Part shown: piece after piece, positions 1,782-50,876 of the stretch
Layout: each line of letters begins with the position of its first letter
Numbering within the stretch: the stretch's first letter is position 1
Assembly: GCF_000016285.1 (NCBI RefSeq)
Contig: NC_011989.1
Span: 561,001 to 625,000 of the forward strand
Length of the DNA: 64,000 bases
Source of the DNA: Allorhizobium ampelinum S4
GTDB lineage: Bacteria > Pseudomonadota > Alphaproteobacteria > Rhizobiales > Rhizobiaceae
Direction of reading: 5' to 3'
Notes under the pieces: model-generated
Seen by the model: only the letters and a program-made list of their open reading frames with translations
What the model was told of the DNA's origin: nothing
Databases searched by the model: none
Position numbers and translations under genes: made by a program

Positions 1782-2984
1782 ATGCACAAACATGATCCGG
1801 TTCGACAGATCAGCTTCATTCAGCAGGCGCTGTCGCAGAACCGTAAACCTATCGGCTTCTTCCTCGGCGCGGGCTGCCCGCTGTCGATCCGTGTCAATGA
1901 GCGCGTGGAAGATGGAACGACTATCACCGACCCGCTGATCTGGGACGTAGCTGGACTGACGAAGGTGATAGCAAAGACCCTGTCCAGCGGGGACCCCGCA
2001 AACCCCACAAGCTGGGATAAAATCGTTCAGATCGTGAACGAGGATGGCGGCAACAGCGGCAATATCGAACTCATCCTCAGCCGCATCCGCGTGTTCGCGA
2101 GCGTAGCCGGCATCGGAAATGTTCGCGGCCTCACGGCAGCAGAGCTCAAAGTGCTCGATGCCGAGGTCTGTAAGGTGATCTCCGATGAGGTCACCCGTAC
2201 GCTTCCGGAAAAGGATAGCCCTTATCACAATCTTGCGATCTGGAGTCGGTCGATCCGTCGTGAGCGGCCCGTCCATCTCTTTACGACCAATTACGACCTG
2301 CTGATGGAGCAGGCGCTCGAGGAAAGTTCAGCGCCCTATTTCGATGGCTTCATCGGTGCCCGGAAGGCTTTCTTCGACCTCGGCGCCGTTGAGGACGAGG
2401 GCTTGTTGCCGCCACGGTGGACCCGGCTATGGAAAATCCATGGCTCCTTGAACTGGCGCCTAGAGAATGAGACGGACGTCGTTCGATCCGATGAAAAGAC
2501 CGATAAGCAGAGCTATCTAATCTACCCGTCCCATCTCAAATATGACCAGAGCCGCAAGATGCCCTATCTTGCGATGCTCGATCGGCTGAAGGCCTTCCTG
2601 CTCACGCCGTCTTCGCTCCTTTTTATCTGTGGCTATTCCTTCGCAGACGAACATATCAACGACGTCATATGCCGTAGCCTCGAGGCGAACCCGACCGCGC
2701 ATGTCTTTGCTTTTCTCTACGGTGATCTAGACACAGATAGCTACAAGCTAGCGCGCCAGTGTGCGCTAGCGACCCCGAATTTGAGCCTGTTGGGTTTCAA
2801 CAAGGCTATCGTCGGCCGCACACCGGGTGACTGGACAGGCGACGGGGCGGATGACCTTGTGCTGCCGCCCAGTATCCTCGTGAGGGACGGCGACAAGGTC
2901 GCCGTTCGGCTCGGCGACTTTGCAGCGCTAGGCGCGATGTTGCGTGGTCTCTCCGGCGAGAGGATGAGCGATGATCCAGCCTGA
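1782..2984 (+). CDS. SIR2-like NADase domain protein of a SIR2-HerA operon
   Basis: A 400-residue SIR2-family protein. The NAD-binding signature FFLGAGCPLS is at residues 26-35, TTNYDLLME (N170, D172) is the conserved asparagine/aspartate block, KIHGSLNW holds the catalytic-type histidine (H220), and GYSFADEHIN at 284-293 is the C-terminal motif usual in bacterial defence SIR2 proteins. Related proteins in Thoeris, DSR and SIR2-HerA systems degrade NAD+ during phage infection. The gene overlaps the following herA-type gene by 14 bp, so the two are translationally coupled. Defence function is inferred from domain and context. No membrane segment or extra sensor domain was seen. Confidence 0.88.
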   Translation: MHKHDPVRQISFIQQALSQNRKPIGFFLGAGCPLSIRVNERVEDGTTITDPLIWDVAGLTKVIAKTLSSGDPANPTSWDKIVQIVNEDGGNSGNIELILSRIRVFASVAGIGNVRGLTAAELKVLDAEVCKVISDEVTRTLPEKDSPYHNLAIWSRSIRRERPVHLFTTNYDLLMEQALEESSAPYFDGFIGARKAFFDLGAVEDEGLLPPRWTRLWKIHGSLNWRLENETDVVRSDEKTDKQSYLIYPSHLKYDQSRKMPYLAMLDRLKAFLLTPSSLLFICGYSFADEHINDVICRSLEANPTAHVFAFLYGDLDTDSYKLARQCALATPNLSLLGFNKAIVGRTPGDWTGDGADDLVLPPSILVRDGDKVAVRLGDFAALGAMLRGLSGERMSDDPA

Positions 2985-5100
2985 ACTCGCCAACCGGGCA
3001 ACCGTCATCGGCACTGTTCAAGACGTCAGCGGCACGTCGGTCAGCGTCACCTTGACGTCGGACCGCTTCTCCGGCCTGAGCTTTGTCCACGGCCAGGGCC
3101 ACAAAATCGGTCAGATCGGCAGCTTTGTTAAAATCCCGATCGGTTATATTGACCTCTATGGGATCGTGTCGCAGGTGGGCGCCAGTGCGGTTCCCGAAAA
3201 GGCCGCACTTTCGATGCCCAACGGCTTGCGCTGGATGACGGTCCAACTGATTGGCGAGGGTTACAGGACGGGTCGGTTCCAGCGTGGCATCTCGCAATAT
3301 CCAACCTTCGAGGACGAAGTCCATCTGGTCTCTGAGGCAGATCTCCAAGCGATCTATGGGCGGTCGGACAAGCAGAATCATCTGGTCCGGGTCGGTCATG
3401 TTGCAGGGAGCGAGTCGATCGACGCACTTGTCGATGTGAACAAGCTCGTGACGCGCCACAGCGCTGTTGTCGGGACCACCGGCTCAGGCAAGTCGACGAC
3501 AGTCGCGGGGCTGTTGAACGTCCTGTCAGATGAAAGCCGCTTCCCGTCGGCGCGAATCGTCGTCCTCGACCTTCACGGAGAATATGCCAAGGCGCTTAGC
3601 GACCGTGCGAATATCTTCAAGATCAGCCCGGATGTCCGCAACATCAACGAGCACCGGCTGTGCATCCCGTTCTGGGCGCTGAGCTTCGATGAGCTCATGC
3701 GGGTGACATTCGGAAGCCTCCCGCCCGATGGAAAAGCGCGCAACGTCATCCTCGAGCAGATACTCGAGGCCAAGGTCGCAAGCCTGACGGCGCAGCCGAT
3801 CGCCGGTGTCGATCCCTCCAGTATCACAGCCGATAGCCCGGTGCCTTTCTCGCTGAACAAGCTCTGGCATGACCTCTATTGCCGCGAGTTCGGAACCTAT
3901 CTCAGCGCCGGCGGCGCGAACCCGTCAGATCAGGCGACCTGGGCCTATGAATGCGATCCTTTGGGCGCGAAGATCGTGGGGGATGCGCAGTCCGCAGTCC
4001 CACCGCGCTTTCGCAAGGTCAAGAATGTCGCCTCTGATCCGGAAAAGATCAATTGGCTTCCGGACGTCCTCAACATCCGCGGGCCGCTTGAGGCGCTCGG
4101 AGCCCGGCTTCGCGTCGCGCGCTACGACTTCTTGCTGAAGGCCGGCGACTGGCATCCCGAGCTCGACGGCACGACGACCAAGACGCTCGCCGAGCTCGTC
4201 GGTCAATGGCTCGGCAGTGACAAGCCGATCACGATCCTCGACCTGTCAGGCATTCCCTCGACGGTGACGAACGATATCATCGGCAACATCTTGCGCGTCC
4301 TTTACGATGGTCTCTTCTGGGCGCGTAACTTCTCGGAGGGCGGACGCGAACGCCCGCTGCTGGTCGTGATGGAGGAAGCGCACAGCTATCTTGGCGACAA
4401 TGGCAGCAGCGCCGCCTCCATCGCGACCCAACGCATCGTCAAGGAAGGGCGCAAGTATGGGATCGGCGCGATGATTGTCAGCCAGCGCCCGGCCGAGATC
4501 AATCCCACGATCTTGTCACAATGTGGAACCTTCTTTGCGATGCGCTTGAGCAACGCCACCGATCGCTCACATGTGACCAGCGCGCTCTCCGACAACCTTG
4601 AAGGTTTGACCAGTATGTTGCCGGTGCTACGCACCGGTGAGGCTATCATTCTCGGCGAAGCGGTGAGGCTACCAATGCGGACAATGATCCAGGCACCACC
4701 GCGCGATCGCCGCCCCGACAGTCAGGATCCACTGATCTGTGACGAAGCCGCGCCTGAGGATTCGATGACGCCAGGCGGTTGGAACCTGAAAATGCACATC
4801 GCCGCGGACTATCGATATTTTGTCGAGACCTGGCTCCAGCAAAACCCGGTCCCCACCCCGCACCAAGAAGGAATAACACATATGGCCTGGCAGGATTTCG
4901 CCCCCTTCACCTCGTCAAACATCGCCGCTATCCGCTACGATGAAGATCAGTTGCTGCTCGAGGTCGAGTTTCTCAACAGCACCCGTTATCATTATTATGA
5001 TGTGCCGCCGCAGATTGCGCAGGCCTTCGATCAGGCCGGATCGAAGGGGACTTTCCTCGCGTCGACCATCAAGGGTCATTATCGCTACAGCCGGGTCTAA
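2971..5100 (+). CDS. HerA-family ATPase with C-terminal KTSC domain
   Basis: A 709-residue HerA/FtsK-superfamily ATPase. Residues ~1-75 resemble the HAS-barrel; the Walker A is GTTGSGKST (168-176); the Walker B with the HerA signature is LLVVMEEAHSYLGD (463-476); GRKYGIGAMIVSQRPAEI and TFFAMRLSNATDR are the downstream sensor/arginine blocks. HerA proteins form hexamers and act with nuclease or SIR2 partners. The last ~64 residues (SSNIAAIRYDED... to KGHYRYSRV) match the KTSC fold, a small domain often attached to nucleic-acid-acting proteins; I do not recall this fusion as standard in SIR2-HerA pairs. It overlaps the SIR2 gene by 14 bp and is separated from the next gene by one base. Confidence 0.9.
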   Translation: MIQPELANRATVIGTVQDVSGTSVSVTLTSDRFSGLSFVHGQGHKIGQIGSFVKIPIGYIDLYGIVSQVGASAVPEKAALSMPNGLRWMTVQLIGEGYRTGRFQRGISQYPTFEDEVHLVSEADLQAIYGRSDKQNHLVRVGHVAGSESIDALVDVNKLVTRHSAVVGTTGSGKSTTVAGLLNVLSDESRFPSARIVVLDLHGEYAKALSDRANIFKISPDVRNINEHRLCIPFWALSFDELMRVTFGSLPPDGKARNVILEQILEAKVASLTAQPIAGVDPSSITADSPVPFSLNKLWHDLYCREFGTYLSAGGANPSDQATWAYECDPLGAKIVGDAQSAVPPRFRKVKNVASDPEKINWLPDVLNIRGPLEALGARLRVARYDFLLKAGDWHPELDGTTTKTLAELVGQWLGSDKPITILDLSGIPSTVTNDIIGNILRVLYDGLFWARNFSEGGRERPLLVVMEEAHSYLGDNGSSAASIATQRIVKEGRKYGIGAMIVSQRPAEINPTILSQCGTFFAMRLSNATDRSHVTSALSDNLEGLTSMLPVLRTGEAIILGEAVRLPMRTMIQAPPRDRRPDSQDPLICDEAAPEDSMTPGGWNLKMHIAADYRYFVETWLQQNPVPTPHQEGITHMAWQDFAPFTSSNIAAIRYDEDQLLLEVEFLNSTRYHYYDVPPQIAQAFDQAGSKGTFLASTIKGHYRYSRV

Positions 5101-5101
5101 T

Positions 5102-6139
5102 ATGCCACTTGTCAGCCTCGATCAGAAAAATAGCCGCGTTCAGTTCAGTGCCTTTGAGGTAGAGAACAAGATCTTGTTCGAGTTCTTTAACAAGGTCGCT
5201 GCCGCCGATCGCGACGAACAGCTCCACAAGGCGCTCTATATCGGCGTCCTGGCACTCATGGAGGACCGACTTTCCAGCTTCCTTTCGCGGACAGCCAACG
5301 AGTTAGGGACAGAGCTCGAAAGCCTGAAGCTCATCTTCGATATGAAGAAGGAGCTTTTCTACCGGTCGGCGGTGAAGGGCGTGCTCGCTGAAGCCGATAT
5401 CGCCGACTTCCTGTCGGAGTTTTTTGCTCGCCAGAAGCTCGCCGACCGGATCGAGTTGACCGGCGACCGCGCCGGTGCAATACGTCGAAACAAGACTGGC
5501 GACATCGTTTGCCATCTTGCCGGCGACAGTGGCAAACGGATCGCGATCGAATGCAAGTTCGACAAGAGCATCCGACTCGGTGACATCCAGACCAAAGATG
5601 TCTTCACAAGAAAGGCGGATACGGCCTGGAGCCAGCTACTCGAAGCGCAGGCCAATCGCGACGGGCAGGCTGGAATTATCGTCTTCGATGCATCACTCAT
5701 CGACAACAGCATCCTCGCCGCCGTCCAGGACCTGAAGTTCCTCCCCGGTATCGGCCTGATCGCAATTATCGACTCCCAGAAGGGCGATTATCGCAATCTC
5801 GCCATCGCTTACATGCTGGCACGCGACATCGCGCTCAACGCGCAGACGCTCGATCTCGACACCGACGTCCTCAAGATCATCGTGAACCGGCTGATCAAGG
5901 ATGCGCGCGACATGGCGCTGGTGAAGCATCTCGTCACCGCGAATATCGACAATATGAAACAGATCCTCGCACAAATCGAGAAAGGCATCCTTCTTGCGGA
6001 ATTTAATCAGCGCTACCTCATCAAGTTTCTCGCCGAGGGGACCCTCACAAAGGAAGACATGCTCGCTTTCTATGCGGGGGAAGAGGTTAAGGAGCGTTTC
6101 CGGCTTGTCGAACGCGAGATCGGCGACCTTTGCTCATGA
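5102..6139 (+). CDS. Putative PD-(D/E)XK nuclease, third gene of the SIR2-HerA operon
   Basis: A 345-residue protein that starts one base after the HerA stop (ATG 5102-5104; an earlier in-frame start lies inside herA and is unlikely). I do not recognise the full-length family. The central stretch TGDIVCHLAGDSGKRIAIECKF has the spacing of a PD-(D/E)XK catalytic core: D134, then a hydrophobic strand with E150 and K152 (IECK). An upstream helix (ADFLSEFF) could supply the fourth acidic residue. The C-terminal half (~200-345) is helical. Context suggests a DNA-cleaving partner of the HerA motor, in addition to the SIR2 NADase. Nuclease assignment is inference from the motif. Confidence 0.65.
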   Translation: MPLVSLDQKNSRVQFSAFEVENKILFEFFNKVAAADRDEQLHKALYIGVLALMEDRLSSFLSRTANELGTELESLKLIFDMKKELFYRSAVKGVLAEADIADFLSEFFARQKLADRIELTGDRAGAIRRNKTGDIVCHLAGDSGKRIAIECKFDKSIRLGDIQTKDVFTRKADTAWSQLLEAQANRDGQAGIIVFDASLIDNSILAAVQDLKFLPGIGLIAIIDSQKGDYRNLAIAYMLARDIALNAQTLDLDTDVLKIIVNRLIKDARDMALVKHLVTANIDNMKQILAQIEKGILLAEFNQRYLIKFLAEGTLTKEDMLAFYAGEEVKERFRLVEREIGDLCS

Positions 6140-15892: not shown

Positions 15893-16795
15893 ATGGGCAT
15901 TCAAGCTGATAAACAAATGAAGCTTCGCATTCAGACATGGCGCGAAGCATTTCGCGATGAAACAACCGGCATTCTCAAAACGGTAGATGACCTCATTTGG
16001 AACTACGCAGCTTTCCGAACGGCTATCCGGGTCGTATACCTCGCAAATCAGAGAGATCGAGAGCGACCACCCATTAATCAGATGCTGTTCAATCTGATTT
16101 CAAATGGATACTGGTCTAGCCTCTTGCTAGGCGTGCGTCGGCTTCTCGACAAAGGTGCTATTAAAGGCGGGCAGGGTGTCTATTCCATCAGAGCCGTGCT
16201 TGAAGACATTAAAGCTTGTCGAGCGAAATTGCCTCGACGGGTCTATGTCGAGGTGTTGCGGGATTGTCGATACGATCTTGCCAAGCTCGAAGAGGAGCAT
16301 TGGGAGACCCTGAAGGCAGCAAACGGAAAACCCGTTTGGGGCGATCCTGCCCTGAGCCTAAGTCAAATGGCTCACCAGCATTTCGACATCCTAAGCGGAA
16401 TTTCGGCCGATAACCGCGGCCCTAACGATCTAATCAGTGGCGATATTTTTGACCGGCTGGAAAATCGATTGGCTGCGCTCGACAGAATCAATGATCATGT
16501 CAGCTCGCATCTGGCTCATGCCGGGAATCGAGAAAGCAGACAGGGAAAACTCCTTGACGAGTTTGATATTCGTGACTCTCGGGAAACCCTGAAGGAGCTT
16601 GTGCAGGCTGCCCACCTTGTCGGCGTCTGGTTCGCCAACGAAGGTGGGGCAGGGCTTGCAACATATATCGGGGACCAGTTTGAAGGGTTGGACACCGCAT
16701 TGGTTTTCCCGGAAGATATGTCCGACCTGAAAAAAAATTGGGAAGCAATCCGCCATGATGTGGACAGCTGGCACATAGAAGTCGATGACTTATGA
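15893..16795 (+). CDS. Helical protein with AbiU2-like features
   Basis: A 300-residue, mostly alpha-helical protein. The segment NGYWSSLLLGVRRLLDKGA followed by GQGVYSIRAVLEDIKACRAK resembles the core of AbiU2/HEPN-like abortive-infection proteins (W, then LL..RL.D., then a SI/SL..LL block). The similarity is by eye and limited, so this is a tentative reading. It is divergent from a membrane protein gene and 42 bp upstream of a 219-residue unknown gene on the same strand, forming a possible three-gene cluster. Confidence 0.5.
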   Translation: MGIQADKQMKLRIQTWREAFRDETTGILKTVDDLIWNYAAFRTAIRVVYLANQRDRERPPINQMLFNLISNGYWSSLLLGVRRLLDKGAIKGGQGVYSIRAVLEDIKACRAKLPRRVYVEVLRDCRYDLAKLEEEHWETLKAANGKPVWGDPALSLSQMAHQHFDILSGISADNRGPNDLISGDIFDRLENRLAALDRINDHVSSHLAHAGNRESRQGKLLDEFDIRDSRETLKELVQAAHLVGVWFANEGGAGLATYIGDQFEGLDTALVFPEDMSDLKKNWEAIRHDVDSWHIEVDDL

Positions 16796-17497: not shown

Positions 17498-17894
17498 ACA
17501 ATGAGTTGCATGCGAATAATAAGATTTATTTTCAAATAGATACCTACATAATTATCTAAAAAATTTGAAATTCCTTCATAGCAATGATGGATCAATATTT
17601 TCGAACTCTTGTATAGACAGAGCAGCTGTGTTGGCGAAACTCTGGAACGACCGTGCAATGCCGCAATCTCGGGAAGGTTAAAGGGTTGGCGTTATCGTTG
17701 ACGACACTGTTGGCGGAAGCCACATTGCAAAGGACGCCGTGTATGGCCGATTTGGCTTTTTTAACTTCTCCAATGCCTACTGACAGTTTCGCCAGGATGC
17801 TGTTGACGGTTTCACCGGACAACTATTGACACTTTCCCCTCATGCCTATTACAACTTTCCCCATCTTTCGTTGTTGAAAAATGAAGTGTCTATC
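17498..17894. other. AT-rich gap before the AAA ATPase
   Basis: About 400 bp, AT-rich at 17500-17600, with no supported gene. A possible promoter for the next gene is ttgaca at 17826-17831 with tattac at 17847-17852, but the 15-bp spacing is short. Nothing else recognised. Confidence 0.35.
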
Positions 17895-19172
17895 ATGGAT
17901 GAGAGTCTCCTCCCGCGTCATCTGCAGCCCGAATTAAGGGCTGCACTTACGTCAGCGCGCGTGGTTAACATTATTGGACCGCGCCAAGTCGGAAAGACGA
18001 CATTGGTGCGCGACCTATTGAGCGTCGGAAAATTCATAACCTTAGATGACGAGTCTGTGCTCGCAGCCATTGAGGCCGATCCAAAAGGACAGCTGGATGC
18101 CCTGTTGGCTGAGACAAAAGCGGGCCCCCTCATTATCGACGAAGCCCAGCGATCAACGAAATTAGCCTTGGCGTTGAAGAGAATCGTCGATGAGAACCGA
18201 GCAATGGGTCAGTTCATCCTGACAGGCTCGTCCAACGTTTTCATTTCCGCGGACGTGGCAGACTCGTTGGCGGGTCGTGTCCATACGATGACGATGCTTC
18301 CAATGAGTGTCGCCGAAACAAAGCGCATGGGGCCTGCGAAAATTCTGGACTGGGCATCGGCGCATGACCGTCCCGATCCACTAGATCTGCCTAAAGCAGA
18401 AACGTTGTCCCGGACACAATACATCGACTTGATAGTCGCAGGCGGTTTCCCCGAGATACGAACTCTGGAAGAGCGCTGGCGGCAAAATCGATACAGAGAC
18501 TACGTTGACAGTGTGGTCGAACGCGACGTTGCATACATCTTAAAAATAAGAAAATCAGATGCCATGAGGCGAATGATCGATCAATTAGCTACGCGTGTCG
18601 GGAACGAACTGAACATAGATGAACTGTGTTCCAACATCAGTTTACAAAGGAATACCACCGACACCTACCTCGATATTCTAACCAAGCTCTCTCTATTGCG
18701 GCGATTGCCTGCGTGGACCTCTGGTGAGTCCGGACGCGACATACGCCAACCAAAAATCCATCTTGTGGATACTGGGATCGTCGCGGCTTTGAGGAGTATG
18801 AACGCCCAGAGCTTCAATATAGGCGCGAATCCCACAGCGCTTGGCGGCATGTTCGAGAATTTCGTTTTCAATGAAATGTGGAAATCCCTTCCCCATCAGA
18901 TACGTCAGTGGCGACTTTATCATTGGAGGCACCAACGAGGACGCGAGATAGACATCCTTGCCGAAACAGACAGAACGATAATCGGCTTTGAGATGAAGAC
19001 ATCGACTACTGTTGAGGCAAAGGACTTTCAACATCTGCGGTGGTTTCGAGACGAAGGCCCAGGCAAAAGCCGTCCCTTCGTTGGCATCGTCATCTATATG
19101 GGAGAACGCATACTCAGTTTTGGCGATAATATATTTGCGCTTCCTCTGTCTATATTTTGGTCATTCAAATAA
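17895..19172 (+). CDS. AAA+ ATPase with DUF4143 domain
   Basis: A ~425-residue protein of the AAA_14/DUF4143 family. Walker A is IIGPRQVGKTT, Walker B is GPLIIDEAQR, and FILTGSSNVF is the sensor block. The C-terminal part has the usual DUF4143 landmarks: DSVVERDVAYI, LVDTGIVAALR, LGGMFENFVFNEM and REIDILAETDRTIIGFEMK, the last a PD-(D/E)XK-like tail common in this family. These proteins are widespread in bacteria and often sit in genomic islands; their function is unclear. Start placed at the ATG at 17895; an earlier start at 17826 lacks a ribosome site. Confidence 0.85.
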   Translation: MDESLLPRHLQPELRAALTSARVVNIIGPRQVGKTTLVRDLLSVGKFITLDDESVLAAIEADPKGQLDALLAETKAGPLIIDEAQRSTKLALALKRIVDENRAMGQFILTGSSNVFISADVADSLAGRVHTMTMLPMSVAETKRMGPAKILDWASAHDRPDPLDLPKAETLSRTQYIDLIVAGGFPEIRTLEERWRQNRYRDYVDSVVERDVAYILKIRKSDAMRRMIDQLATRVGNELNIDELCSNISLQRNTTDTYLDILTKLSLLRRLPAWTSGESGRDIRQPKIHLVDTGIVAALRSMNAQSFNIGANPTALGGMFENFVFNEMWKSLPHQIRQWRLYHWRHQRGREIDILAETDRTIIGFEMKTSTTVEAKDFQHLRWFRDEGPGKSRPFVGIVIYMGERILSFGDNIFALPLSIFWSFK

Positions 19173-35792: not shown

Positions 35793-37874
35793 TCAGTTGG
35801 CTGCTGCTGCGGCCGGAAAAATGGACGCGGGAATGAAATCTTGAAATTCATCCCACGATAAAGTCTTCGGATTCCCGTCCGAGTCAGAGATTGTCAGTAC
35901 CGCATCGCCTGGAACGCACTCCTGTTGACTGAGTTGCCCGTCAGCGTCGCTAAAAAGCACGCGAATGTGCCGATCGCCACCAAGAATGTAGGATGTAACC
36001 TTCCGGATCGATCCAAGGTCGACTGGAAGTTCATCGCCACAAAACTGCATGGGTCCGACATTAACTGGACTTACTTCACGCAGAGTACCATCTTCCAACT
36101 GCAATATGTTTTTCCGCACTCCGAGTGCTTTAACAATGTTGAGGCGTCCGCCATCCAAGACAAATCGGGCAAGCTTAGGGTCATAGTCAACCGACATCAT
36201 CAGACGATCCTTGACAGCACGAGGGGACGACAATCCTAATGAGCGCAATAAACCCGAAGTAAAACTGACCAATGGAGCTGCAAAAGAAGTTCCGGATACG
36301 CTAATGTCGCCGGAGCTACTATGGTAGGGCAGCGCACAGCCCGGTGCGACAATGTCTACGTACCGTTTCGAAAAGTCCGAAAAGTGTGCCAGACCTCCCC
36401 GGCCGTCACTTGCCCCAACCGTGATCAGCTGGTCTCGTAAAGCTCCGAACCCACCATAATTCGCGGGGTAGTTTGGCGCTGCCTCAAGAGCTTGCGGATT
36501 GTTTCCAGCGGCAGCCACGACCAAAAGGTTGGAGTGCCTAAGAATGACTTCAGAGAAGGATGGCAGCGGTTGGGGCGTACCTATACTGATGTTCAGGATG
36601 TCGCCGGATAAAGCGGCATATACAGCCCCTTCATTCAGCGCACTTTCCGGAATCTGAAAGCTCTTATCAGCGATATTTTGGTGCACAGCCTTTACGAATT
36701 TCAACCGCAAAAACTTTCGTACGGTATGATCCAGCTCCGCCTTACCCAACACCCCAACAGCCAGTTTCGCAACTTCCGTCCCATGCTCGGCATCCTCATA
36801 CGTGTTGTAAGGAGCCAGGTCATTCCCTACCAGCGAGGTGTCGATGCCATAGACATCATCGACAAATTGGTTATGATCATCATCTTTGTAGTTGCCAGGG
36901 ACTTCTTGCGTGTTTGCTTTTGAGACGCGTTTGAGAAATTTGAATCCATCCGCTGTTATACCAGTGTCTAGGACAACAATTGTAGATTGGGTCTCGGCGT
37001 CACCCGATTGTTCGTCCATGTTCGCTTTTAACGTAGCGGTGATCTGAGCGGCGTCGAACGGCCATTTACCACCTATCTGGCCTGCGTCGCTGCACCCCGG
37101 CGTGTCCACTAAAGGGCTTTTTGCGTCCAGGGCGTGGATAAGATCGATCCCTTCGACTGCTGCGCGATTGACGATAATAGGTGCGAATTCGCCAGCGTTG
37201 TTCTGAGCCGCGTCAATAGCCGCACCCGTAAGCCTATTGATCTCAGCCGCAGCGTCACTCGGCGACACCTTCGAGGCCGCACTAATGGTTACGGTGGTCC
37301 ATTGGGTCGTGATTGGGAGCGTCAAGACGGTCCCCGTTTTCAAAACTCCGCCGAGACCAATGCCAGGATTTGCCTTCGCAACAATGTCCATTAGCGAATT
37401 GTTGCAGCGTGACGATTGCTCGGCGGCGTCGCAAGGCTTTAAAATTGCCCCAGAGGGGCGGCCGATAGCGCGGATCAACACATCGTCCAACGTTTCGCCT
37501 TCAGACGTAAGTACTTTCGCGTTACGCGACCATTTCAGGCAAGCGGGAAGCTGTACCAAACGCGGCTTGGCAGCCGGAGCGAGCACGACCATACTTGGGT
37601 TTAGGTGCTGAAGCTTGTCGATGTAAGTATTGGTCAGGACACCGCATATCCCAGCTAAGAAGGTTTCAGGTCGAACACCTGGAGGCATCAATGCTGGCTG
37701 CGGTTCCGAGATGTCTGCGATGTAGGAGATCACACTGTCAGGCACTGCTGAAGTGGCCCGCAGAAGGAGTTGGGAGCCGTTGTCCGCGCGAGCTTGGTGG
37801 CTAGTTCCCAACGCCGAAACCACGAATAACAAAATCCAGGTGAGAGGTCGCCCGAAAGCTATTAATTTCGACAT
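35793..37874 (-). CDS. Exported subtilisin-like (S8) serine protease
   Basis: A 693-residue protein from ATG 37874 (an upstream start at 37925 is less likely). A signal peptide is present (ILLFVVSALGTSHQARA, cleavage near ADN), then a ~270-residue N-terminal region with several cysteines and a LysM-like stretch (LKTGTVLTLPI). The S8 catalytic set is complete: D303 in IVVLDTGI, H364 in DAEHGTEVA, the oxyanion Asn in AAAGNNP and S530 in SVSGTSFAAP. A C-terminal ~130-residue domain follows. It overlaps the upstream trypsin-like gene by 13 bp. Acts outside the cytoplasm; substrate unknown. Confidence 0.85.
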   Translation of the reverse strand: MSKLIAFGRPLTWILLFVVSALGTSHQARADNGSQLLLRATSAVPDSVISYIADISEPQPALMPPGVRPETFLAGICGVLTNTYIDKLQHLNPSMVVLAPAAKPRLVQLPACLKWSRNAKVLTSEGETLDDVLIRAIGRPSGAILKPCDAAEQSSRCNNSLMDIVAKANPGIGLGGVLKTGTVLTLPITTQWTTVTISAASKVSPSDAAAEINRLTGAAIDAAQNNAGEFAPIIVNRAAVEGIDLIHALDAKSPLVDTPGCSDAGQIGGKWPFDAAQITATLKANMDEQSGDAETQSTIVVLDTGITADGFKFLKRVSKANTQEVPGNYKDDDHNQFVDDVYGIDTSLVGNDLAPYNTYEDAEHGTEVAKLAVGVLGKAELDHTVRKFLRLKFVKAVHQNIADKSFQIPESALNEGAVYAALSGDILNISIGTPQPLPSFSEVILRHSNLLVVAAAGNNPQALEAAPNYPANYGGFGALRDQLITVGASDGRGGLAHFSDFSKRYVDIVAPGCALPYHSSSGDISVSGTSFAAPLVSFTSGLLRSLGLSSPRAVKDRLMMSVDYDPKLARFVLDGGRLNIVKALGVRKNILQLEDGTLREVSPVNVGPMQFCGDELPVDLGSIRKVTSYILGGDRHIRVLFSDADGQLSQQECVPGDAVLTISDSDGNPKTLSWDEFQDFIPASIFPAAAAAN

Positions 37875-38692
37875 CCTTGCACCGCTCCCAAGCCGCATAT
37901 TTGAGCCGATTTTTCCTTGCTCCAACTTTGGAAAAAAGCCCGGCCGTCCGGGGAAAACGTGGCCGATAGATAGGACGTGAGCTTACTCATGTCTACGCGC
38001 GAGTTCACTCCTACAATTGCTCGATAGGTCCCCGCAGCTGTGGGGGTTTCCAGGAATGCTCCTCCCCCGCTATCTCCAGGACATATAGCAGCTCCTTGCG
38101 TAACGACTGAATTGCGATCGAAGACATAGGTTTTGTCTGGGACGTTCGGCATCCTGACAACCGGTGCGTAACCGATTCGAAATGTACCCGCTCCATTTTG
38201 ATACTGATCACTGCAGCCATACCCAGCCAAGGTGATTTTTACGCCCAAAGCAACTGCCTTCGGGTTAAAAGATATCATTTCATAGACGACTGGAATTGCG
38301 TCGCCGTCAGTCGAGCAGAGTGCGTAGTCGTCGCTTGGATCATTTGGCCATCCATCGGGTTTCGTGCACGTGGCGTGGTAGGCTATTTGGTGCACAATTG
38401 CGGTGAATTTCCCCGACGGAGGTAAACAATGAGCGGCTGTCAGTATTACATGCGGACCAACAATTGTGGCAGTGCAGTGGCTGTGATCGTCGACGTTCGC
38501 GTAGAGGGTCGCTGGCCAATCGGTCGTCCTAGCTGGCACTGTTCCGTGGATGACTTGCCCTTCAAGCCCTGACTGGTTCAGGGTTTCTACAGACTGATAG
38601 ACAGCATCTTCTGCCCAAGCGCTTGAGAGCGAGGTATCCATCAAAAGCATCACAACCGCGGCACAAAGTAGTTTTGGGCATGCCACTTGCAC
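37862..38692 (-). CDS. Exported trypsin-like (S1) serine protease
   Basis: A ~276-residue S1 protease. The first ~28 residues are a signal peptide (LLCAAVVMLLMDTSLSSAWA). The triad is visible: H88 in ILTAAHCLPP, Asp in the DDYALC segment (D121/D122) and S208 in CPGDSGGGAF. The extreme start is a GTG at 38692 directly against taggag; a second GTG two codons later (38686) has better spacing behind aggagg. The stop overlaps the subtilisin-like gene by 13 bp and the lipoprotein gene is 3 bp upstream, so the three are one operon. It might activate the S8 enzyme or the reverse; this is speculation. Confidence 0.85.
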   Translation of the reverse strand: MQVACPKLLCAAVVMLLMDTSLSSAWAEDAVYQSVETLNQSGLEGQVIHGTVPARTTDWPATLYANVDDHSHCTATIVGPHVILTAAHCLPPSGKFTAIVHQIAYHATCTKPDGWPNDPSDDYALCSTDGDAIPVVYEMISFNPKAVALGVKITLAGYGCSDQYQNGAGTFRIGYAPVVRMPNVPDKTYVFDRNSVVTQGAAICPGDSGGGAFLETPTAAGTYRAIVGVNSRVDMSKLTSYLSATFSPDGRAFFQSWSKEKSAQICGLGAVQGCRN

Positions 38693-43210: not shown

Positions 43211-46200
43211 TCATGCGTCGTCCTTCTGACGTTGCATCTTTAGCAATATGCCTTCCCTTTTATACTGTTCGATTTGACGGCTCTTATCCTTGGATTCGTC
43301 GCCGCCGTTGAGGCGGACGATAGTGCCCGATAGGTCAGCTTGAACAGCTTCGAAATGATGCTGAGATATCTGATCCATCCGCCGCAGCTCTCCTAGCTTC
43401 CAAGCAAGCGCCTCTAGGAGATAATCGCTTTTCGCCAGCCGCTTCAGAGCATTTCTGACCGTGCTGGGGGTAACGCTCAAACCCAATTCCGCGATTAGGC
43501 ACGATCGGAAGAACTCATACACGAGTGGATCGTCAGCATCCTCCAGTGTTGGTTCCGTCAGTTGTAGCTGTAGTTTTTCCGTCCCCATTGAGACCGCGAT
43601 GAACCTAGTAATGTTCGTAGGCATATTGATCGCGATCCGGCGACCAAGCTCTTCGTTCGTCATCGACCGAGGGGCGTGTATCTCGTACAAGACCCCGTTT
43701 ATGCGCATCTGTCGTTTCTTGGCCAGTTCTTCAACCATCGCGAGCGATGCGCTAAGAAGCATAGCCCAACCTTTCCAAGCGAGTCTGAGGTGTTTACTCT
43801 TATCTGTAGCGCTGATCTGCTCCATGTTTTTAATGATGCCAGAGAACAGAAACAGACCTACCAGTAGACGATGTCCGGGATGCTCAATCCTTGGACGGAA
43901 AACAGTTTGACGTTCTTCCACGTCACGAGGGATGTCCGCATCAAGAGCCGCGTCTTTCTCTTCCTTCGTAAGGGGTTGCCCTAGGACATGTGACGAAAGT
44001 TGTGCAAGGGATTCACTACTGCCCTTCCGAGGTAGCTTTACGGTTTCGATGTCTGAGGGGTCGAACGGCGCTAGTTCCTGATTGTCGTCTAATATTGCGT
44101 TGAACCGTTCATGAAGTAGGTTAGCAATCCGGGCGTCGTTCCTGACAAGGCCTGCGTAATAGTGCAGTTCGTTGATGTAAGTTAGGTAACGGGTCTCATC
44201 CAATACCCAATCTTTGAAATCGGCGTCTTTTATAATCTGAGTGGCGATGAAGTATTCCAAGACCGCGCGATACCGAAACGATACTCTGTTATCCGGCATC
44301 TTCCGCATTATCTTCGCTGCGAAGAATTCGGCCATAATTTCATCAAGAGGGGCCACAAGACCGATGTTGGAAACAAAAGCCTTCATCTCTTCTCGCAGCG
44401 CTTCCTGGGCGGGTTCGTAGCAATTTTGCTTTGCCATCCAGCCCGCTATGTGCGCGAGCAGCGATGTCTTGTTGGAGTAGTCAAACGTTTCGCGTCGCGT
44501 TTGTTCCGCAGCACTCTTGCGCAAAGTTGCATCTACGAATTGTTCAATCATTACGGATCGATTAATTGGCTGAAAATTGCTGTTTTGCTCGTAGATCGTC
44601 ATTAAGATCGTGCCATTGGCAGCGGTGAAGGGCAGATTGATCTCTGATATCTCCGAGTGAAGGCGGTCGAGGATGACTTCCACCGCAGCGGCATCTTGTA
44701 CCTTGAGGCGGATGAGTTCTCGCATCTCCCTCCGTTTGAGTTCGCAGAGTTCCACAAATTCGAAACGGATCGGCGTTTCCGGAACGACATGAGCGCCGTA
44801 GGGGGCTGCCGATGTCTTCAGACTGGTGAAAACGTATCGGCATTGGGGATAGGCTGAGATAAATGCCCGTAAAATTCCCATGCGTTTGTGGTCGTCAAAG
44901 ACGACGTCATCAATAAGCAAACAGACCAGACCCAACTTCAACAGGCTCTCGGTGCCGAATGCCTGTGGGTCCATAAGAGACCGACTTCGTACAAGCCTTT
45001 CTAGATTGGCTGGATTTTGGCTGATCTGATCGAAGCCGATCATGATTGGAAGACGTGGCTGCTCGATTGTATGCGAAGTGGCGAGCAACTCGTATTGGAT
45101 TTCGCGAAGAATCGTTGTGCGGCCATATTCCTGAGGACTATACAGGATAATGTTACCCGCGTCGGCGGTGAGTGATTTGAATGGAAGCAGTGTGTCTAGG
45201 CGGGTGCGCGTTTCCTTGGGTGCCGTCGTGTCGATCTTGTGGAGGCGCGGCGCTACGAAGTGCTGGCGTCCAGCTTGATTGATTAGCGACAACTCCGACC
45301 ACTCCTTGATCAGGTCTTCAAAGACCTGACCGGACAATTGCTTGCGGAAGGCGTTGTCATCAACGGGGTTCGACAGCGCTCGCCAATACTGTCTCGCCTC
45401 CTGCGAGTTATAGAAGCGACCGTCTGCCACACGATCGATTGCATCATCGAACTTGGAGCGTTCGGGGAAATAGCTCTTCAGTATTGTCTCGTGGTACCCT
45501 TTGGCTCGATCCACGCAAAGCAATGCATACCCGATATACCAGTCAGTGCGGTGCGTGAAGACCGCGCCTGCTTGGTTCGTTATTACGGTCCCGTCGAAGC
45601 CTACGACCTGTGCTCCCGACGGATCATGCATATGGCCAAACAGGTGAATATTGGCATTTCGTTGTATCTCCTTCGAGAGGTAGCTGGCACCAGTCTCCGT
45701 GAAAGCGTTCAGCGGGTGATGGGTGGTGAAGATCCGAAACGTTCCAGGCTTCAAATAAGATAGCGCGTCGCGAATTGCGTATTCCGGTATCGTCAGCAGC
45801 CCTTCGTCACGATCATCCTTATCGAGACCGCCAGTCGAGAGAACTGACGAGTTGAAAACAATGATGTCAGTGTTCAGCGCGTCAATATGGTAGACCGAGC
45901 AAAAAATGTTCGCGAACACGGTGCTGCTCTTCGCCATGTAGTCTTCGAGATCAAGGTAGTTGGCGAACTTTGCGCGATATGCCGGTTCGAACTCACCACT
46001 CTCGAACGCGGTATTCATGGCGGCCATGTCGTTCGAAGTCGATCGCCATTTGATATGTTCAGGTAGGAACTTAGCGACGGCGTCTCGCTCGACATCGTGA
46101 TTGCCCGCAACGATGAACATCCTCTCGCTCGAGACGTTTGTCGCCTTCTGTAGTGGTTCCAGAAGAAAATCGTATGCTTCTGCATGGGTGTCGCCAGGCG

Positions 46201-46426
46201 GCCCCTGTGTAAGATCGCCGCTGAAAATAATGACGTCGGGTTTTCTATGGCCGATGCAGAGTTTGGAAATGTCGTCAAGCAACGCCTTAACTACGATTTC
46301 CTGTTCACGCTTTTTGCGCACGTTGAAATGGAAATCACTGACATGGAGAATGGTAATTCTGTCTGGAGCGGTCACGATTTGTCCGTCGAATAATTCGAGT
46401 TGCGATATATGCGCGAGCTTTTCCAT
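43211..46426 (-). CDS. Metallophosphoesterase fused to a degenerate P-loop (STAND-like) region
   Basis: A 1071-residue protein (ATG 46426; a TTG at 46492 has no ribosome site). Residues ~25-320 are a calcineurin-like phosphoesterase with all metal motifs: VSDFHFN (D31, H33), FSGDLTQG (D71), AGNHDVE (N109, H110), TTHHPL and FGHMHDP (H265, H267). After ~400, NIILYSPQEYGRTTILREI looks like a Walker A lacking the Gly and Lys, and LVCLLIDDVVFDD like a Walker B, followed by CRYVFTSLK. The ~500-residue C-terminal part is helical. The layout matches STAND/NACHT-like proteins that pair an effector with a sensor. Likely a defence protein; this is inference. Confidence 0.75.
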   Translation of the reverse strand: MEKLAHISQLELFDGQIVTAPDRITILHVSDFHFNVRKKREQEIVVKALLDDISKLCIGHRKPDVIIFSGDLTQGPPGDTHAEAYDFLLEPLQKATNVSSERMFIVAGNHDVERDAVAKFLPEHIKWRSTSNDMAAMNTAFESGEFEPAYRAKFANYLDLEDYMAKSSTVFANIFCSVYHIDALNTDIIVFNSSVLSTGGLDKDDRDEGLLTIPEYAIRDALSYLKPGTFRIFTTHHPLNAFTETGASYLSKEIQRNANIHLFGHMHDPSGAQVVGFDGTVITNQAGAVFTHRTDWYIGYALLCVDRAKGYHETILKSYFPERSKFDDAIDRVADGRFYNSQEARQYWRALSNPVDDNAFRKQLSGQVFEDLIKEWSELSLINQAGRQHFVAPRLHKIDTTAPKETRTRLDTLLPFKSLTADAGNIILYSPQEYGRTTILREIQYELLATSHTIEQPRLPIMIGFDQISQNPANLERLVRSRSLMDPQAFGTESLLKLGLVCLLIDDVVFDDHKRMGILRAFISAYPQCRYVFTSLKTSAAPYGAHVVPETPIRFEFVELCELKRREMRELIRLKVQDAAAVEVILDRLHSEISEINLPFTAANGTILMTIYEQNSNFQPINRSVMIEQFVDATLRKSAAEQTRRETFDYSNKTSLLAHIAGWMAKQNCYEPAQEALREEMKAFVSNIGLVAPLDEIMAEFFAAKIMRKMPDNRVSFRYRAVLEYFIATQIIKDADFKDWVLDETRYLTYINELHYYAGLVRNDARIANLLHERFNAILDDNQELAPFDPSDIETVKLPRKGSSESLAQLSSHVLGQPLTKEEKDAALDADIPRDVEERQTVFRPRIEHPGHRLLVGLFLFSGIIKNMEQISATDKSKHLRLAWKGWAMLLSASLAMVEELAKKRQMRINGVLYEIHAPRSMTNEELGRRIAINMPTNITRFIAVSMGTEKLQLQLTEPTLEDADDPLVYEFFRSCLIAELGLSVTPSTVRNALKRLAKSDYLLEALAWKLGELRRMDQISQHHFEAVQADLSGTIVRLNGGDESKDKSRQIEQYKREGILLKMQRQKDDA

Positions 46427-46739
46427 TTCAGTGGCATCCTGTCCGGAATCTGCGTCTCGTGTAATTGAGCCTATATGGTAGGCCGCCTGCAAGTAGAAGG
46501 TGCCGATACAGACACCTAGCCGAGAGTTATCCTACGTTTTATGCCTTAAAACATGGACACGAATGCCATTATCTAATCAGGTGTTCTCCTAAAAACGGAT
46601 CGTGGAGCTTCGAGATTGAAAAGCGAACGAAATTCTGTGCGGGCAGACTTACTCTTGGGTTTTTCGAGGGATATCCCAGAGCTTTTCCGTGGCATCTTGC
46701 TGCTCCTGCTATTCGATGAATTCGCTAACCACACAAAAT

Positions 46740-49596: not shown

Positions 49597-49961
49597 TGGC
49601 GCTGCCCCAATTATATACTGAAAAGTGCGTGGCTGACGCGCTGCACATTTCTACTCGGTCGCTTCGGGAAGTCTTGAAGGAGCGGCCTTTTTACAGACTG
49701 GTAGGGCGGCGCAAGGTATTCACTGACGCCGATGTTAAAGCACTTGTGGAGTCTCTTGCATGTCCCTCAAACTCATTAAGCGACACGGCGGTAAAAATTG
49801 GTATATCCGCGGTACCATCCGAGGCGTCTCAGTGGACGAAACTACAGGAACTGACGACAAGAAAAGGGCGGAAGAAATCCGTATCCGACGCGAAACGGAA
49901 ATCCTCGACCGTCGTATCCATGGAATCAGAAAAACAGCGACGTTCCTTGAAGCCAGTGTGA
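49596..49961 (+). CDS. Second HTH/excisionase-like protein overlapping the integrase gene
   Basis: The N-terminal ~50 residues are a clear HTH of the excisionase kind: LYTEKCVADALHISTRSLRE, then RPFYRLVGRRKVFTDADVKA with LVESL. The frame runs on for 121 residues and overlaps the integrase gene by 202 bp in another frame; the second half is Ser/Lys-rich and may be a by-product of that overlap. The arrangement of two HTH genes and an integrase at an island end suggests a control module for integration and excision. Confidence 0.6.
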   Translation: MALPQLYTEKCVADALHISTRSLREVLKERPFYRLVGRRKVFTDADVKALVESLACPSNSLSDTAVKIGISAVPSEASQWTKLQELTTRKGRKKSVSDAKRKSSTVVSMESEKQRRSLKPV

Positions 49962-50791
49962 TGTATCTAGAAGAGGGCGGCGCAAGCCGGTTTGTGGATG
50001 TTGTTGCCCGTTACTTTGGCACCACGCCACTCTCCGAGATCGACCAACCGGCAATAGATCGGGCGGCACGGGTTCTCTATCCTGATGCCAAAGCATCCAC
50101 CAGAAACCGGCAGGTCTTCACGCCGGTTTCTGCCGTCCTCAACTTTGCCGCAAAAAAGAAGATGTGTGACAAGCCTATCATTGAACGGCCTGCCCAACCC
50201 AAAGGGCGAATTCGATGGATTACCATCGAAGAAGCGCAGTCGTTGATTGACGCCTGTGCACCGCACCTCAAGCCTCTTGTGACGTTTCTGTTTTATACGG
50301 GCGCGCGGCTATCCGAGGCGCTTTATCTCGACTGGCGAGACGTGGACCTTTCACGGTCGCACGTTGCCTTCTTGGATACCAAGACGGGCGACGATAGAGG
50401 TGTTCCGCTCCACTCTGGCGTGGTCGCAATGCTGGCGAACTTGCCGCACCGTGAAGGTGCGGTTTTTCGTCGGCATGATGGCAAGCCTTACGAAGTGAAG
50501 GAAGACGGCGGCGGGCAGATCAAGACCGGGTTCAAGGGCGCTTGCCGTAGAGCCGGGATTTCCGACTTCCACCCCCACGATTGCCGCCACACATGGGCGA
50601 CCTGGCACTATGCCGCAAACCGCGACCTTATCACCTTGATGAGACTCGGCGGCTGGAAATCTGAGCGCATGGTTTTGAGGTATGCGCACATCAACGTCGA
50701 TGATCTTGCAAGCTCGATAGAATCCATTCCTTGGGGAAAATCCGGGGATGTGAACAGCGGTCAAAAGAAAAACGTAAGGAAAACAAAGTGA
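49760..50791 (+). CDS. Tyrosine integrase of the island
   Basis: A 343-residue phage-type integrase. The catalytic set is complete: R183 in TGARLSEALYLDWRDV, K208 in LDTKTGDDRG, H273 and R276 in HPHDCRHTWATW, and Y308 in MVLRYAHINVDDL. N-terminal residues ~1-60 hold an arm-binding-like segment. It lies 20 bp from a tRNA-Thr 3' copy, so it most likely integrates the island at that tRNA gene. Confidence 0.93.
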   Translation: MSLKLIKRHGGKNWYIRGTIRGVSVDETTGTDDKKRAEEIRIRRETEILDRRIHGIRKTATFLEASVMYLEEGGASRFVDVVARYFGTTPLSEIDQPAIDRAARVLYPDAKASTRNRQVFTPVSAVLNFAAKKKMCDKPIIERPAQPKGRIRWITIEEAQSLIDACAPHLKPLVTFLFYTGARLSEALYLDWRDVDLSRSHVAFLDTKTGDDRGVPLHSGVVAMLANLPHREGAVFRRHDGKPYEVKEDGGGQIKTGFKGACRRAGISDFHPHDCRHTWATWHYAANRDLITLMRLGGWKSERMVLRYAHINVDDLASSIESIPWGKSGDVNSGQKKNVRKTK

Positions 50792-50796
50792 TGAAA

Positions 50797-50857
50797 GTAT
50801 GTAAGAACATACTTGGTAAGGGAGAGGCCGAGAGTTCAAATCTCTCTAGCAGCACCA
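50797..50857 (+). repeat. Right attachment site: 3' half of tRNA-Thr(GGT)
   Basis: Bases 50812-50857 read cttggtaagggagaggcc, then gagag-ttcaaat-ctctc (T arm) and tagcagcacca, i.e. the anticodon loop ttggtaa (anticodon GGT), the anticodon 3' stem, variable loop, T arm, acceptor 3' strand and CCA of a tRNA-Thr. There is no 5' half, so this is an att copy, not a gene. Directly before it is the perfect hairpin gtatgt-aaga-acatac (50797-50812). The complete tRNA gene should be at the other island end. Confidence 0.88.
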
Positions 50858-50876
50858 TTACATCCCATTGAAATTA

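Follow-up and report, generated by a model that had tools for sequence, protein, structure and literature searches.

A nuclease-like protein coupled to SIR2-HerA-KTSC and to unrelated ATPases suggests a portable component of anti-phage operons

Here we describe an operon of Allorhizobium ampelinum S4 in which three coupled genes encode a SIR2-like protein, a HerA-type ATPase read through into a KTSC domain, and a 345-residue PD-(D/E)XK nuclease-like protein that we call G3. The operon lies in a window of 64,000 nucleotides (NC_011989.1, positions 561,001-625,000 of the forward strand), to which all coordinates below refer. Comparison of its relatives suggests that the new part is the modularity of G3, which follows HerA-KTSC in many genomes and unrelated ATPases in others. 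We hold with moderate confidence that the whole is a mobile anti-phage operon, in which a SIR2-HerA-KTSC killing arm is joined to a portable G3 that would cut DNA and so trigger the ATPase with which it is paired.

Partners of G3 and their exchange

The search with the G3 protein returned 2,694 relatives, and a scan of genome contigs gave 134 G3 loci, the best 80 of which were kept and joined by one from viral contigs to make 81 (loci below about 58% G3 identity fall outside this set, and the short L001-L003 are excluded from its counts and from the tree). Effector families were named with Pfam and PADLOC from one representative per cluster rather than member by member. HerA-KTSC stood directly upstream of G3 in 46/81 loci, and SIR2 was seen in 44 of these 46, the contigs of L050 and L056 ending before its position; in L044 both SIR2 and HerA are broken into pieces. 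An unrelated ATPase took this place in 31/81 (OLD-like 12, AAA_13 10, PDC-S46 3, SMC33 3, SMC30 with c31 3), KTSC alone in 1/81 and nothing recognised in 3/81, one of them cut by a contig end. The cluster representatives are an AAA_15 protein with an OLD-like TOPRIM, an AAA_13 protein that is PDC-S06 (5.3e-172), PDC-S46 (1.5e-255), an SMC_N/LmuB-like protein for SMC33, and for SMC30 a protein with only a weak LmuB match (9.5e-5). Whatever the partner, the gap to G3 was within 35 bp either way in 75/78 loci, and three compound loci (L020, L021 and L026) carry SIR2-HerA-KTSC, K5 and a second ATPase before G3. The initial annotation had tied the third gene to SIR2-HerA and seen the point of the locus in two effector types on one HerA motor; the linkage recurs elsewhere, but with 35/81 loci lacking HerA-KTSC directly upstream G3 does not form a HerA-nuclease pair as a rule, and the unrelated ATPases rule out a HerA-specific G3 and make it look portable rather than dedicated to HerA.

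Closely similar G3s were found with different partners, with identities of 96.5% between SIR2-HerA and SMC30 loci, 95.9% between SIR2-HerA and AAA_13, 94.7% between SIR2-HerA and OLD, and 93.3% between AAA_13 and OLD, indicating recent exchange. On a quick tree of 82 G3 proteins with many weak branches, in which L008, L045, L056, L073 and L082 carry no class, the partner class changes 27 times (minimum possible 5; shuffled mean 29.4, with 14/200 shuffles as low). The SIR2-HerA label taken alone was clustered (17 changes against a shuffled mean of 24.4, 1/500 as low), and the proteobacterial clade of the window keeps SIR2-HerA, the recent exchange of partners falling in the remainder of the tree. 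In the Bacteroidota SIR2-HerA loci G3 is 59-63% identical to that of the window, and SIR2 only 30-46%. These identities bear on the idea that G3, like McrC with McrB or DUF4297 with HerA, is a dedicated nuclease subunit docked on the adjacent motor, which would feed DNA into it. We consider this rather unlikely, because a dedicated interface should diverge with its partner and yet G3 stays up to 96.5% identical while the partner alternates between HerA, OLD, AAA_13 and SMC types; moreover, in the HerA loci the role of effector is already held by SIR2.

G3 also keeps the company of small genes. KTSC was found in 46/46 HerA loci, and KTSC, K5 or a WYL-like protein in 28/32 others, two of the four exceptions being contig-edge loci. 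K5 (about 75 aa) is KTSC-like by eye, but a profile comparison gave this a probability of 0.7% and we do not claim it; of the WYL-like proteins, W4 is so labelled from a PADLOC match of 2.4e-5 for one member (L032) and W34 by eye only. As a control, PDC-S46 and AAA_13 were searched irrespective of G3 in 296 Bacteroidota-side genomes (the phylum of L018), where they occur in 6 and 18 genomes, respectively. None of the 21 control loci (L135-L155) had KTSC, K5, W4, W34 or G3 in its visible flanks, which reach at most about 1.5 kb and are shorter at contig ends (L142 shows nothing downstream, L140 nothing upstream); L139 and L144 are the same place, as are L140 and L145, L138 carries neither ATPase at the profile cut-off, and the lack of G3 in these genomes is taken from a phylum-wide survey presumed to cover them. 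For these ATPases, then, the small proteins tend to be present where G3 is and absent where it is not.

This company matters for a further alternative, in which G3 is its own restriction nuclease and the anchor of a defence-gene exchange site, the adjacent ATPase cassette being swapped by recombination with no functional linkage between the two. All-class exchange close to random, as on the tree above, is what such a site would produce, and defence genes of other kinds do gather here: restriction-modification (RM) genes stand upstream in at least 10/81 loci (5 with an HsdM cluster, 5 with a type IIG pair), and in 4/81 the gene immediately downstream is Wadjet JetA, cluster representatives having been scanned in each case. 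We nevertheless think this account improbable, as G3 overlaps or lies a few bases from every class of partner and its KTSC/K5/WYL-like company was not seen at the control loci. Downstream of G3 in L018, L030 and L062 we also observed a set of four genes with one weak Pfam match to MukB (E 0.0014); given that the L018 set has no PADLOC match at E <= 1e-10, we do not call it Wadjet, and it is possibly a divergent SMC defence operon.

The operon in the window

Coordinates of the operon genes and of the features discussed below are collected in Table 1. The genes are tightly coupled, with sir2 and herA overlapping by 14 bp (2971-2984) and a 1-bp gap between the herA-KTSC stop, which ends at 5100, and the ATG of G3 at 5102.

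Table 1. Features of the operon and of the right end of the island
Feature	Positions	Strand	Basis or remark
SIR2-like NADase (predicted), 400 aa	1782..2984	+	Motifs GAGC 29, TTNYD 168, IHGS 219; PADLOC, Pfam, 8w9l_A
HerA-type ATPase read through into KTSC, 709 aa as read	2971..5100	+	PADLOC, Pfam, 8wiv_A
KTSC unit, fused in frame to HerA in the window	4882..5100	+	Own gene in 13/13 aligned close relatives
G3, 345-aa PD-(D/E)XK nuclease-like protein	5102..6139	+	131/131 invariant residues, model
One-base length difference from 13/13 aligned relatives (fusion junction), near herA 3' end	4855..4870 (about)	+	Junction alignment
Tyrosine integrase (Phage_integrase), right end of island	49760..50791	+	Domain match
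Right attachment repeat, 48-bp exact copy of the tRNA-Thr(GGT) 3' part	50812..50859	+	Matches L133 18226-18273

In G3 the core motif D134-x15-E150-x-K152 was invariant first in 84/84 and then in 131/131 aligned proteins, which places it well beyond chance, and K92-G93, E97, W176 and Q178 were likewise invariant in all 131 rows, whose identities across phyla are 57-97%. Pfam found nothing significant in G3, and neither did a comparison of its sequence with solved structures (best E 0.5). An AlphaFold model made with 26 alignment rows was poor (predicted local distance difference test score 55.5); repeated with 131 rows, the model contains the PD-(D/E)XK core in the order helix-strand-strand-strand-helix-strand and has structural matches to McrC, Bax1, Can2 and restriction enzymes, pointing to a nuclease-like protein. 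A Foldseek search with this model gave no significant match, so that the fold is taken from the model and VIA-align 2. The PDDEXK_15 family (PF24608) did not match the G3 of the window; it matched 7/26 aligned relatives at E <= 1 (best 1e-5), and a profile comparison of G3 with seven PDDEXK_15 proteins gave a probability of 16%.

The other two proteins belong to a known kind of defence system. Pfam identifies SIR2_2 (E 9.8e-23), DUF87/HerA (1.1e-34) and, at residues 647-704, KTSC (5.9e-20), while the PADLOC models for SIR2 and HerA match at E 2.8e-130 and 4.4e-153. The SIR2 motifs lie at residues 29-32 (GAGC), 168-172 (TTNYD) and 219-222 (IHGS, which includes H220), and those of HerA at 168-176 (GTTGSGKST) and 465-471 (VVMEEAH), so that the catalytic N/D/H motifs of a SIR2 adjoin a HerA with Walker motifs, as in SIR2-HerA defence. 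The nearest solved proteins are 8w9l_A for SIR2 (E 2.2e-93) and 8wiv_A for HerA (E 7e-205, window residues 8-709 against 9-696 of 8wiv), both of which we take to be from Paenibacillus. Both window proteins fall below the NCBIfam cut-offs, SIR2 with 76.3 bits against 500 for SIR2_antiphage (NF042942) and HerA with 225.1 bits against 850 for HerA_antiphage_2 (NF042944), which puts the pair outside that curated subgroup and nearer to 8w9l/8wiv. Made from the letters and translations of the window, the initial annotation had proposed a SIR2-HerA defence operon of three genes with a full SIR2 motif set and a nuclease-like third protein, for which it suggested structure prediction; its gene boundaries, overlap and gap are exact, its motifs and nuclease residues are where it placed them, the SIR2-HerA assignment agrees with Pfam, PADLOC and the structural matches, and the predicted model of G3 contains a nuclease core, though without the significant Foldseek match.

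The same annotation regarded the KTSC domain as an addition to HerA and did not know the layout as described, and here the evidence points elsewhere. In 13/13 aligned relatives ktsc is a separate gene whose start (ATG in 12/13, GTG in L015), at a homologous codon, follows the herA stop by 3-6 bases, and the annotated Paracoccus plasmid pPZ02 likewise has four separate genes for SIR2, DUF87, KTSC and a hypothetical protein. The one-base length difference makes the window read from HerA into KTSC, and judging from the alignment none of the close relatives examined shares the fusion, the original layout probably not being fused; the read-through may be a recent mutation or a sequencing error. A fusion seen in one genome is thus a warning against reading it as design. 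Fused HerA-KTSC does occur elsewhere, in L018 and in 8wiv, whose KTSC end (residues 632-696 of 696) is included in the match to the window. This match makes SIR2-HerA-KTSC a known kind, and together with KTSC in every HerA locus with G3 it rules out KTSC as a new addition: it is an ordinary companion of SIR2-HerA of this type, and what is new in the layout is the modularity of G3. Other defence-like proteins repeatedly carry a KTSC tail as well: it is joined to PIN_8 in a protein encoded between HerA-KTSC and G3 (L056:923-1906) and forms the end of 593-633-aa proteins upstream in L024, L035, L044, L045 and L049, of Schlafen AlbA_2 type in L024.

SIR2-HerA differs from the control ATPases in that KTSC is kept without G3, standing directly after HerA in 5/5 examined near loci that lack G3 and have SIR2 at 39-42% identity (a sixth, G136, runs into a contig end and is left out); in L121, a more distant pair (SIR2 33%), no KTSC was seen. 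These loci also rule out that SIR2-HerA-KTSC is always RM-embedded, as among ten proteins around the five, five had families (E <= 1e-4), none of them RM, and five had none. Since SIR2-HerA-KTSC thus exists without G3, and since a SIR2-HerA pair alone stayed resistant after deletion of the rest of its island (accessible part of PMC11559045), one could suppose an ordinary SIR2-HerA defence with nothing new in the mechanism, G3 being an accessory with a regulatory or protective role, such as an immunity nuclease or a repair nuclease. We regard this as very unlikely, because the invariant nuclease residues and the high conservation of G3 across phyla point to a catalytic function of G3 itself.

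Distribution and the tRNA-Thr island

G3 is rare, occurring in 3/398 genomes of the window's phylum (own genome included), and the same three genomes hold SIR2s at 72-100% identity. The phylum of L018 has it in 4/395 genomes, that of L018 included; one of these is a 33-residue fragment, and the three full proteins have HerA-KTSC upstream. No match to G3 was found by tblastn in 50,697 phage records, nor to the operon DNA in E. coli genomes by megablast, the only search made there; plasmid records gave one match. The operon is part of an island integrated at a tRNA-Thr(GGT) gene, which lies left of the window and whose repeat copy stands just behind the integrase. Between the attachment repeats, which are separated by 52.6 kb, lie the operon as well as genes for a TraG/VirD4-like coupling protein and a MobA/MobL relaxase. 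The presence in Aureimonas, Luteibacter and Stenotrophomonas of G3s that are 95-97% identical is in keeping with such a mobile island. G3s 95 and 92% identical to that of the window were also observed in a Planctomycetota metagenome-assembled genome (L008) and a Bacillus (L013), where contamination or mislabelling seems likelier than transfer.

The island carries other genes of note. At 43211-46492 (-) a 1093-aa calcineurin-like phosphoesterase with a STAND-type NTPase region matches the PADLOC candidate PDC-S60 (1.2e-88) and is likely a second defence gene on the same island. An HEPN_AbiU2-domain protein lies at 15893-16795 (+), an AAA_14-DUF4143 ATPase matching PDC-S01 (3.6e-141) at 17826-19172 (+), and subtilisin-like and trypsin-like proteases side by side at 35793-38692 (-).

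A possible mechanism and comparison with known systems

Taken together these observations suggest four functional units, namely a SIR2 NADase, a HerA-type DNA motor, a small KTSC protein (fused here) and a G3 that would be a PD-(D/E)XK DNA nuclease. Destruction of NAD+ by SIR2-HerA, with protection of the population, is described in PMC11559045, and by analogy with characterised relatives HerA would engage invading DNA and switch on SIR2, with destruction of NAD+. We infer that DNA or its state is read by the KTSC or WYL-like proteins, and that G3 cleaves or nicks DNA of foreign origin and so produces ends or damage that would feed or trigger the paired ATPase; such triggering is plausible because sensing linked to DNA ends or RecBCD is listed for Gabija, OLD and Lamassu (accessible part of PMC12904381). 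The outcome of the operon would be an attack on DNA combined with growth arrest. Across loci the cassette would consist of recurring G3 and small reader-like proteins, with the middle ATPase effector exchanged (SIR2-HerA, OLD-like, AAA_13/PDC-S06, PDC-S46 or SMC-like). More tentatively, we can speculate that G3 and a KTSC/WYL-like reader are a portable immune chassis that recognises and cuts foreign DNA and can be combined with at least five kinds of unrelated ATPase effector, each able to serve as its killing arm, in which case one modular defence platform has hitherto been filed as separate systems and candidates. If SIR2-HerA, OLD-like, AAA_13 and SMC-like effectors do have G3 as a partner in common, separately catalogued systems share a component and perhaps a trigger, and their activation becomes directly testable with one protein.

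Neither G3 nor its occurrence with alternate partners was found described in the open-licence literature searched, G3 being nameless and so not searchable by name. Like the SIR2-HerA systems (Nezha; solved 8w9l/8wiv, 8j4u and kin), the operon has adjacent SIR2 and HerA with their motifs, and 8wiv (696 aa, with a KTSC end) aligns over nearly the whole HerA-KTSC of the window; whereas accessible descriptions present those systems as two-component, here close relatives have a separate ktsc and a coupled G3. Such systems are further marked by a SIR2 12-mer assembled on a HerA 6-mer and by an NADase set off upon infection. Variants with a HerA-like ATPase, a KTSC gene and an endoDNase have been mentioned by Aravind and colleagues as an unpublished observation (PMC9503650), and share these three elements with our loci. 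However, the accessible part of that paper has the endoDNase "in lieu of the sirtuin" and reasons from mutual exclusivity, whereas here sirtuin and nuclease-like G3 occur together in nearly all HerA-KTSC-G3 loci and so stand against it; that the endoDNase equals G3 is not stated in that part. With McrBC and HerA-DUF4297 our loci share a DNA motor beside a nuclease, and the G3 model matches a McrBC chain, yet G3 keeps its sequence while the type of motor changes. Lamassu and CBASS combine a constant part with interchangeable effectors; what recurs here, by contrast, is a nuclease-like protein with small putative readers, and the ATPase belongs to what is exchanged.
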